Source: Nitrospira japonica
GTDB lineage: Bacteria; Nitrospirota; Nitrospiria; Nitrospirales; Nitrospiraceae
DNA length: 64,000 nt
Direction of reading: 5' to 3'
Assembly: GCF_900169565.1 (NCBI RefSeq)
Contig: NZ_LT828648.1
Coordinates: 1 to 64,000 of the forward strand
Each line of letters begins with the position of its first letter. The first letter of the stretch is position 1. Below are positions 6,124 through 60,693 of this stretch, in pieces. Under the pieces are notes generated by a model, which was not told the DNA's origin, searched no databases, and was given only the letters and a program-made list of their open reading frames with translations. The translations under genes were made by a program, and so were the position numbers.

Positions 6124-7272
6124 TCAGCCGCCCCGTCCGGACGTCGAACCGCCCGCCGGACTCCGCGTCAAACTTTGCGCCAAACTTTGATAGACCGCTT
6201 CCATCCGGTCCAACATCTTGTCGATGGAGTAGGATCCCTCTACCAACGCCCGGCCATTCGCGCCCAAACGGGAGCGCAGTCCGGCATCGCCCAGGAGATG
6301 CGCGATCCGGTCCGCCAACGCCAGACCATCTCGCGGAGGCACGACATAGCCGGTTTGGCCGTCGATGACGACGTCGGGGATGGACCCGATCGTCGTGGAG
6401 ACGACCGGGATGCCGAGCGCCAGAGCCTGCATCAAGACCTGCGGGATCGTGTCGCCTTCGACGGAGGGAATCGCGAACACGTCCAGCGACCGGAACACGT
6501 CCAGCAGATCGTCGCGAAATCCCAATAGTCTGATTCGCCAAGCCGCGCCCGACTGCTCGATGCGGCGGCGGATCGACTGCTCTTCCGGTCCTTCGCCTAC
6601 GATCACGAAGGTGACGTCGTCTCGCTGCGCCGCGATCCGCCCGGCGGCTTCGATGAAGTATTCGTGGCCTTTGTACGTGCGCAAATAGGAAATGATGCCG
6701 ACCAGCAGATGTGTCGCCGGAAGCCCCAATTCGCGCCGGAGGTCGCGCGCGGGCGGCCCGGGCCGAAAGTGCGCGACGTCGAGTCCGATCGGAAAGGCGG
6801 CGACGCGTCCCGGCTCGAGGCCGTCGCGTTCGATCAGATCGCGCCTGGTCCGTTCCCCGCCGGTGACCACCACCATGTCGAGCAGGCGGCGATACAGCAA
6901 CTGCGTGGTCATGTTCCGGTTCAACGGCGTCGAGATGTGGCGGATTCTGATGATTTTCGGCCTTGGCTTCACCAGACGGACCGCGATGCAGCCGATCCAG
7001 CTGTCCCGGGAACTATTGACCTGAAGGATGGCGGGACGCTCCCGATACATGAGCCCCCGCAGTGCGACGATCGCCTGGGGATACCGGTTTCGGCGCATGG
7101 AGAGGAGCGTGACCGGCAGCCCTTTCTCTTGCGCCATGGCGGCGATGGGGCTGCCCGGCTCCAGAATCAAGCGCAGCCGGTGGCCCCGCTTCACCAGTCC
7201 TTCCGCGTGCAGGAGCACGGCCAGTTCCTGTCCGCCGACCGCCGTGCTGGATTCTGAGATGAAGAGGTTCAC
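6124..7272 (-). CDS. Glycosyltransferase family 4
   Basis: The 382-aa protein has an N-terminal SSTAVGGQELAVLLHAEGLV acceptor domain. A C-terminal donor domain holds VGIISYLRTYKGHEYFIEA, then AIPSVEGDTIPQVLMQALAL and IPDVVIDGQTGYVVPPRD, all standard GT4 elements. The start is a GTG at 7272, only 1 bp from the inverted-repeat element at 7274-7486, and no clear Shine-Dalgarno precedes it. Its initiation region was therefore probably altered by that element, and the start is less certain than the family. Role: LPS core or O-chain assembly. Confidence 0.82.
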   Translation of the reverse strand: MNLFISESSTAVGGQELAVLLHAEGLVKRGHRLRLILEPGSPIAAMAQEKGLPVTLLSMRRNRYPQAIVALRGLMYRERPAILQVNSSRDSWIGCIAVRLVKPRPKIIRIRHISTPLNRNMTTQLLYRRLLDMVVVTGGERTRRDLIERDGLEPGRVAAFPIGLDVAHFRPGPPARDLRRELGLPATHLLVGIISYLRTYKGHEYFIEAAGRIAAQRDDVTFVIVGEGPEEQSIRRRIEQSGAAWRIRLLGFRDDLLDVFRSLDVFAIPSVEGDTIPQVLMQALALGIPVVSTTIGSIPDVVIDGQTGYVVPPRDGLALADRIAHLLGDAGLRSRLGANGRALVEGSYSIDKMLDRMEAVYQSLAQSLTRSPAGGSTSGRGG

Positions 7273-7273
7273 G

Positions 7274-7486
7274 AGCCCACATTATTCATGACGGTTCGTC
7301 GCGAAATCACGAAGTCGCCGAGCGAGACGGGCGCGTGGAGCCGCGAGAGAGGGAGGCGTCCTTGAACAGGACGTTGACCGAGCGAGGGGCGAGCCCGCCC
7401 GCCGGCATGCCAGGAAGCCCGCATGCCAGCTTGTCGGAGCGGTGAATCCGTGATTGCAGCAGAAGCGTTCATGAATAATGTGGGCT
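7274..7486. repeat. 213-bp MITE-like element with terminal inverted repeats
   Basis: A perfect 18-bp inverted repeat (AGCCCACATTATTCATGA) lies at 7274-7291 and 7469-7486. The similarity continues imperfectly inwards for about another 25 bp on both arms. The interior has no convincing gene. It contains a small hairpin around CGTCCTTGAACAGGACG and a 13-nt string, AACAGGACGTTGA (7365-7377), that recurs at 60591-60603. The right end overlaps the TAG stop of the heptosyltransferase at 7485, and the left end abuts the GTG start of the GT4 gene. It may be a non-autonomous mobile element or an interspersed palindromic repeat. Confidence 0.7.
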
Positions 7487-8513
7487 AGGATTGCGCCGAG
7501 CGTCGAGGCAGACTTGCCACAACCGAGAAGGCCCGGTCAACCGTTATGTCGGTCAGGCAGGCGAGATGTTTCGAATTCGAGCAGGTCCTGCTGAAGCAGG
7601 GGCTGCAAGGGACCGGATGCATGAGCACGCCGTGGCCGGCTCCGTAGGGCCCGGTGCACAACGGGCTGGTCGGGCCGAACATGGCGGCCACCGGCGTGCC
7701 GACGGCGGCCGCGACATGCATCGGCCCGGAATCATTCGTGACCAACAGGTCGGCGCGCCCGAGCAGGGCCGGCAAAAGTCCTACGGGGAGCGCGCCGCAG
7801 AGATCCAGCGACCGGGCCTTCATCAACGCCTTGACCTGCGCGACTTCCGCGCGCTCGTTCGGCCCGCCGATGAACAGAACGGAGCCGATCCCACGCTGCA
7901 CGATCAAATCGGAGAGCGCGGCGAACGAGGCGACCGGCCACCGCTTCGTGGGCCAACGCGCGGACACGTTGACCGCGACAAACCGTTCCCCGGCCGTCCA
8001 GCCCGCCTGCTTGAGGGCCCGATCCACCGTCTCGTGATCCCGGTGAGGAATGCGGAACTTGAATTCGGCCGGATGCTCGTCCGCTCCCAGGGCCTTGGCC
8101 ACCAGAAGATACCGGTCCACCGCGTGCATGTTGGGATGCGGCACCGGCACGTGCCTGGTGTAAAACCAGGGGCTGCCCTCGCGCGCGTTGGCGAATCCGA
8201 TCCGTTCGGGAACGCCGCTCAACCTCGCCATCGCCGCGCTGCGGAACAGGCCCTGCAAATCGATGGCAAGATCGAACCGGTCGGCGCGCAGAGCCGGTAC
8301 GAGCGACAACCAGCCCTTCACCCCCGGTTCCACTTCCCACAGATGATCGACCCCGTCGATCCGCTCGACCAATCCCGCCCACTGTCGCTTGACCAGCCAC
8401 CCGACCGTGGCCCCCGGATGGGCACGCCGCACTGCCGCAAGCGCAGGCATCGCGTGCACGATGTCGCCGAGGGAGCTGGGCTTGATGAATAGGATGTGCT
8501 GATACGCCTTCAT
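7485..8513 (-). CDS. waaC: Lipopolysaccharide heptosyltransferase, GT9 family (WaaC-like)
   Basis: The 342-aa GT9 protein begins HILFIKPSSLGDIVHAMPAL, the WaaC/RfaC-type N-terminus, and has the C-terminal donor-site motif TNDSGPMHVAAAVGTPVAAM followed by FGPTSP. It is expected to transfer L,D-heptose from ADP-heptose to Kdo of the inner core. It follows the waaF-gmhB fusion by 37 bp, consistent with sequential heptose I/II addition. Assignment as heptosyltransferase I rather than another GT9 is from family resemblance. Its TAG stop lies inside the inverted repeat at 7469-7486, so its extreme C-terminus may have been reset by the element. Confidence 0.8.
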   Translation of the reverse strand: MKAYQHILFIKPSSLGDIVHAMPALAAVRRAHPGATVGWLVKRQWAGLVERIDGVDHLWEVEPGVKGWLSLVPALRADRFDLAIDLQGLFRSAAMARLSGVPERIGFANAREGSPWFYTRHVPVPHPNMHAVDRYLLVAKALGADEHPAEFKFRIPHRDHETVDRALKQAGWTAGERFVAVNVSARWPTKRWPVASFAALSDLIVQRGIGSVLFIGGPNERAEVAQVKALMKARSLDLCGALPVGLLPALLGRADLLVTNDSGPMHVAAAVGTPVAAMFGPTSPLCTGPYGAGHGVLMHPVPCSPCFSRTCSNSKHLACLTDITVDRAFSVVASLPRRSAQS

Positions 8514-60590: not shown

Positions 60591-60637
60591 AACAGGACGT
60601 TGAAAACGTCCGCCAGCGGCGTTCTCGCCTCGTTCAG
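60591..60637. repeat. Short palindromic repeat fragment
   Basis: A hairpin GGACGTTGAAAACGTCC (60595-60611, 7-bp stem, 3-nt loop) is followed by GCCAGCGGCGTTCTCGCCTC. The 13-nt string AACAGGACGTTGA is shared with the element at 7274-7486. It resembles, from memory, the abundant intergenic palindromes of Nitrospira genomes. It lies between uvrB and the DEAD-box gene. Confidence 0.45.
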
Positions 60638-60693
60638 AAACCCACCGCCTCGCGGTCGTCTGGATGCCCTAGCCGCCGGACGCGACGGGACCG

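Follow-up and report, generated by a model that had tools for sequence, protein, structure and literature searches.

The DNA analysed here, called the window below, is a stretch of 64,000 nucleotides at the start of contig NZ_LT828648.1 of Nitrospira japonica. In it, waaC and the next glycosyltransferase gene are separated by 213 bases (7274-7486) that form an inverted-repeat element, and the locus raises the question of how these bases came to lie there, what they derive from and what they mean for the two genes. A sequence-only reading had taken them for a MITE-like element whose insertion may have reset both gene ends and the spacing of the operon.

The element and its flanking genes

Coordinates together with gene and domain calls bear out that the element fills the gap between the two genes. 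Its left arm, AGCCCACATTATTCATGA (7274-7291), and its right arm, TCATGAATAATGTGGGCT (7469-7486), pair without a mismatch over 18 bp, and the longer, imperfect arms that had also been described extend to 47 nt with 74% complementarity and 119 nt between them. A search of the whole window for inverted repeats (seed 12, length of at least 18, distance of at most 2500) returned seven: five palindromes that overlap, one repeat whose arms lie 1768 nt apart, and 7274-7486, the sole compact hairpin. The 16-base end motif, allowing up to three mismatches, occurs three times in the window, twice as the ends of the element itself, versus 0.2 occurrences expected. The element was also said to provide the waaC stop and to touch the start of the next gene: the TAG stop of waaC (7487-7485, - strand) indeed spans one of its edges, and the GTG start of the glycosyltransferase gene (7272-7270, - strand) lies one base from the other. 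The features are as follows.

6124-7272, - strand: group-1 glycosyltransferase gene (PF13692/PF00534), GTG start adjoining the element
7272-7275: left target copy CGAG (CTCG on the - strand), a decayed YTAR
7274-7291, + strand: left terminal inverted repeat, 18 bp, perfect
7276-7484, + strand: element core, 209 bp, ends CCCACATTATTCATGA inverted, match to covariance model R1
7329-7400, + strand: inner arm A of the consensus fold, alignment columns 56-134 (coordinates converted by hand)
7402-7429, + strand: inner arm B, tip hairpin, columns 136-166 (coordinates converted by hand)
7469-7486, - strand: right terminal inverted repeat
7485-7488: right target copy CTAG, with the waaC TAG stop inside on the - strand
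7485-8513, - strand: waaC-like heptosyltransferase gene (PF01075)

The limits of the core presume that the flanking tetranucleotides count as target copies. R1, a covariance model built from 56 copies of the element, covers all 213 positions of the window copy with a score of 230.7 bits. By eye, all long frames within the element are broken by one-base indels between the aligned copies, and the element is thus non-coding.

An empty site in a relative

In a genome of the same genus (G006), waaC and the glycosyltransferase gene (91% identical to its orthologue here) are adjacent and free of the element, with a 4-base stop/start overlap, GTGA. The empty site reads ...GATCCTTGTGAACC in G006, and its equivalent here reads ...AATCCT[AGCCC ... 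GGGCT]CGTGAACC; the waaC product ends in ARSL* in G006 and in AQS* in N. japonica. Two other genomes, G001 and G004, have a different sequence upstream of the gene and offer no empty-site evidence. The G006 site shows that 7274-7486 is an insertion, and one that changed the spacing of the genes, from the 4-base overlap to 213 added bases.

Further copies and a transposase with the same ends, which the sequence-only reading had proposed to look for in the genome itself, are scarce or missing there. A DNA search of the genome matched the element alone, and the end motif with two mismatches occurs at two further places, both without an inverted partner. The covariance search found one decayed second copy (G000:C1:1876277-1876431, E 1.3e-7). 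Four 46-nt partial R1 matches in the same genome were rejected as copies, as they belong to a different repeat. A search with PF13701 detected no IS1380 transposase in this genome, and the window copy is therefore probably stranded. The main evidence for mobility comes instead from relatives, which hold dispersed copies, the empty site, and IS1380 elements that share the end of the 213-bp element and have similar target duplications. It could be objected that a single good copy in the N. japonica genome and a conserved fold are what an immobile host RNA gene, or an ordinary intergenic sequence, would also present; this explanation has next to no probability left, as it is refuted by the empty site and by copies at many different places in relatives, and no Rfam match lies over the element.

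Eight copies in G006 were queried against the N. japonica genome as joined flanks. One (L195) aligned across the joined site, one (L200) matched with both flanks but about 80 other bases between them, three matched with one flank and three found nothing. The right flank of one G006 copy, L199 (G006 flank query 1949-2099), holds another repeat, present at more than 20 places in G006.

A repeat family of the Nitrospiraceae and its target

DNA matches to the 213 bases were found in 33 of 61 genomes, that of N. japonica included, many of them full-length, and identity to the element is 69-88% among the matches listed. R1 has matches in 145 of 175 genomes and in all 22 genera of the Nitrospiraceae; up to 13 places were scored per genome, which makes the copy numbers minimum values. 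Of 395 genomes sampled across the phylum, 98 have matches, and six of those 98 lie outside the family. One of the copies sits at the locus of a heptosyltransferase relative (L117). Plasmids and phages gave no element match, nor did viral contigs when searched with one exact-end pattern. Searches of open PMC text listed no paper that seemed to describe the 213-bp element family. The kind of element is known, the family itself is new, and its fold is kept unusually well.

The 81 full-length matches were reduced to 70 distinct copies by leaving out copies close to a contig edge, copies whose insides were identical and copies containing N. A YTAR tetranucleotide flanks 44 of the 70 on the left, 52 on the right and 34 on both sides, and is absent from one or both sides in 36. 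Identical tetranucleotides occur on both sides of 22 copies compared with 15.1 when sides are shuffled (13 of 2000 shuffles were as high). A YTAR target duplication is thus probable for the family, in eroded form. It is invisible in the window copy because CTAG on one side is matched by CTCG (- strand) on the other, and the empty site in G006 has CTTG. At two loci (L215 and L224), the flanks just outside the copies could pair with one another (GCCCATTG with CAATGGGC in L215, for instance), a pattern that insertion into the loop of a pre-existing hairpin, perhaps a terminator, would leave.

Stop codons at element junctions

YTAR contains TAA or TAG, so that some copies sit on the stop codon of a gene and re-create it. 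A TAA or TAG gene stop forms the junction in 27 of the 70 copies. Among 43 gene ends reading into the element, called from ORF length and third-position GC and including some antisense frames (for example, on the left side of L001), the stop lies exactly at the junction in 30 (29 TAG or TAA, one TGA); against the one third expected by frame, a slightly different selection with 31 junction stops gives p 1e-6. The 27 of 70 exceed the background of 29 Nitrospira-like loci, where 113 of 679 YTAR sites are gene stops (p 1e-5), and show no excess over the window, where 18 of 54 are (p 0.21). Active targeting is not claimed, given the lack of excess over the YTAR sites of the window, and the placement on stop codons may be a passive channelling by the target.

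If the target is duplicated, an in-frame TAR within it must already have served as the stop when the element arrived, and the junction genes would therefore not be cut. In G006, a DsrE-like gene (L197) ends in YLYIKP with TAA at the junction, and its end coincides, to the residue, with that of its element-free orthologues in N. japonica, G003 and G005. Another G006 gene (L195) ends in GSP with TAG at the junction; the element-free orthologue in N. japonica ends in SSP TAG, and that in G003 (L242) ends a few residues earlier (FWDKK*). A Pfam scan of ten junction proteins gave matches above the cut-off for six, below the cut-off only for two and none for two. The junction genes include those of a pyruvate kinase and an NAD kinase, whose C-terminal domains are almost complete, and of a glycyl-tRNA synthetase beta subunit.

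By the same token, the proposal that the insertion reset both gene ends holds in part. The spacing of the GTG start did change, whereas the TAG of waaC, which lies within a YTAR target and has parallels in L195 and L197, is probably waaC's own stop, and the TTG in G006 probably a change in G006. The qualification is due to G006 itself, which has CTTG and a protein one codon longer.

A conserved fold

On the + strand, the predicted folding energy of the element as RNA is -114.5 kcal/mol, compared with -78.6 (sd 4.2) for 200 shuffled sequences (z -8.6), and on the - strand it is -102.2 kcal/mol, compared with -74.0 (sd 4.9; z -5.7). An alignment of 56 of the 70 copies (205-216 bp; three outliers or divergent copies were excluded) yields a consensus shape of an outer stem and two inner arms. 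Its 68 consensus pairs are standard pairs in 97.5% of cells versus 88.2% after shuffling, and 42 of the 68 show changes on both sides versus 23.8, comparisons that are flattered by the structure having been derived from the same alignment. None of 500 shuffles was as high on pairing or on both-side changes, and slid controls pair in 28-42%. Changes on both sides affect eight of the nine pairs of arm B.

How this fold is kept is a separate matter from the mobility of the element. Even if the element is a MITE, template switching between the arms of the palindrome during replication may maintain the pairing as a byproduct, without any selection on folded RNA or single-stranded DNA; such an origin is a serious minority candidate. 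It is consistent with the counts over the 55 pairs predicted on both strands, where there are 52 G-U cells and 37 A-C cells, an excess too slight to point clearly to either strand as the one under selection, and with the lack of a clear orientation bias relative to neighbouring genes (24 '<E<' and 18 '>E>' of 64, from an analysis in which gene starts are unreliable). Against it, the two inner arms show covariation of their own, apart from that of the outer stem, and some unpaired positions (G51, A52 and A81 among them) are invariant in all 56 copies. These two features lean towards selection, on RNA or on single-stranded DNA, over template switching. A tentative and rather doubtful extension is that the element is a structured RNA (or single-stranded DNA) module moved by a transposase and kept by selection across the family, which settles through YTAR on the stops of intact genes and might supply messages with a ready-made 3' or intercistronic structure.

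Rfam 15 has no match over the window copy at E up to 1, two weak matches lying outside the element, and none to copies L033 and L048 at E up to 0.5. A second family of hairpin repeats, about 122 bp long with ends like GATGNTCAAAAAGGCC ... GGCCTTTTTCAACATCC, was seen at G000:C1:3470643, 3475404, 3477813 and 3743202 (L300-L303), at L113 11835-11954, L231 547-661 and L232 677-799, and in part in the window at 60593-60638. Its inner arm (GAGGCRTAC..GTAYGTYGAG) matches R1 positions 70-116 (E 5e-4 to 7e-3 in 4 Mb). A hairpin module common to arm A and to this otherwise different family is a hint of a common binding partner.

A probable parent among IS1380 elements

The search for a parent took in IS1380 and IS630 loci. 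In the family-wide search, YTAR together with the end motif CATTATTCATGA (up to two mismatches) occurs in 10 of 26 IS1380 loci (94 kb), compared with two matches in 80 other loci (846 kb), L117 and L175, of which that in L117 is the element copy. Six IS1380 elements could be delimited. They are 1691-1707 bp long, with left ends like CCCGGATAATTCACGAC and right ends like CCCGCATTATTCATGAC, and are flanked by CTAG/CTAG in L267, L270 and L269 (the last at a contig end), CTAA/CTAA in L265, CTAG/TTAG in L266 and TTAG/CTAG in L264; the tetranucleotides are thus identical on both sides in four of the six. NCBIfam classes the L266 and L270 transposases as IS1380. In the best case, that of L266, the right end of the IS1380 element is identical to CCCACATTATTCATGACGGT (7276-7295) at 20 of 20 bases. 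The 213-bp element has two such right-type ends, and the IS1380 left end differs. Between the inside of the element and that of IS1380, short chance-level matches were all that was found, and the inside is not IS-derived.

The most fitting description of the element is an IS1380-related MITE, both of whose ends are of the right type. Judging from the shared ends, the intact IS1380 insertion sequences of relatives are the probable parent, and their transposase would be what moves it. One circumstance that sits uneasily with this is that PF13701 is absent from several copy-rich genomes (for example, G009, G015, G020, G028 and G033) as it is from that of N. japonica. IS5 elements use YTAR/CTAG targets, and a parent in that or another YTAR-target family, with the shared IS1380 end due to coincidence or capture, would account for both the target and the many element-rich genomes without IS1380. 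Such a parent is improbable, as far as a search of IS1380 and IS630 loci goes, in view of the 20 identical end bases in L266 and of the enrichment of the motif at IS1380 loci.

Two other candidates were tried as parent and rejected. The IS1380 elements of the first 14 genomes have different ends, for example CCCTATTCTCCGGC in G017, and the tested IS630 loci have no such ends, apart from a single locus close to a copy of the element and from weak matches that lack an inverted partner. G017 also holds another IS1380 element of about 1.54 kb (L088, L090, L092 and L094), with 19-20 bp perfect ends CCCTATTCTCCGGCTAAGC, whose four copies are more than 99% identical and which was probably active recently.

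Proposed history of the locus and comparison with known systems

The best explanation of the locus as a whole, with a probability of about 0.85, is a non-autonomous, IS1380-related MITE of the Nitrospiraceae that was moved in trans to the waaC stop, with predicted effects through spacing and through its hairpin. An IS1380 transposase acting in trans would have brought the element to a CTAG composed of waaC's TAG stop and the pyrimidine before it. Duplication of the four bases on insertion would have left waaC its stop and displaced the GTG of the glycosyltransferase gene, formerly overlapping that stop, by about 0.2 kb. Immediately ahead of the GTG, the operon transcript would then carry a highly stable hairpin and would lose its stop/start coupling, so that the GTG would be accessible only beyond a stem of about 100 kcal/mol or once that stem was cleaved. 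The hairpin may offer a site for RNase III-type cleavage of the kind reported for Correia elements. These effects on translation and mRNA are predicted from the arrangement of the genes and the fold; RNase III-type processing is a fair guess. No site fits a sigma-70-like promoter pattern in 7150-7650 (a search covering the sigma-70 type alone), and no terminator pattern was found around the window copy.

The repeat occurs in the majority of the genomes sampled from a large family to which nitrifiers belong and whose members are mostly uncultured, and it is tied to a probable parent transposase that can be tested. Its YTAR target shows how an element can occupy a stop codon without cutting the gene, and the strong covariation of its inside, not usual among MITEs, is directly testable.

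Among known systems, the closest is the IS1380 family (NF033539 / PF13701), in particular the subgroup L264-L270, which shares the CCC..ATTATTCATGA end and YTAR-type target tetranucleotides. Members of this subgroup are 1.69-1.71 kb long with a transposase gene and a CCCGGATAATTCACGAC-like left end, whereas the element is geneless and has two right-type ends. A piggyBac survey takes IS1380 as outgroup (PMC10813416). piggyBac elements likewise have a 4-bp target duplication, of the TTAA type, but are animal elements, and the target here is mostly CTAG. For Correia elements of Neisseria, a review (PMC10969869) reports RNase III cleavage at the repeats and the presence of promoters. They resemble the element in being short, repeated and intergenic with inverted ends, and differ in their ends and host; no outward sigma-70-like promoter was found for the window copy in 7150-7650. 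ERIC elements of enterobacteria, which are known for compensatory changes, are also intergenic imperfect palindromes. According to the same review (PMC10969869), they alter transcripts when located at the 3' ends of genes. They differ from the element in sequence, length and host.
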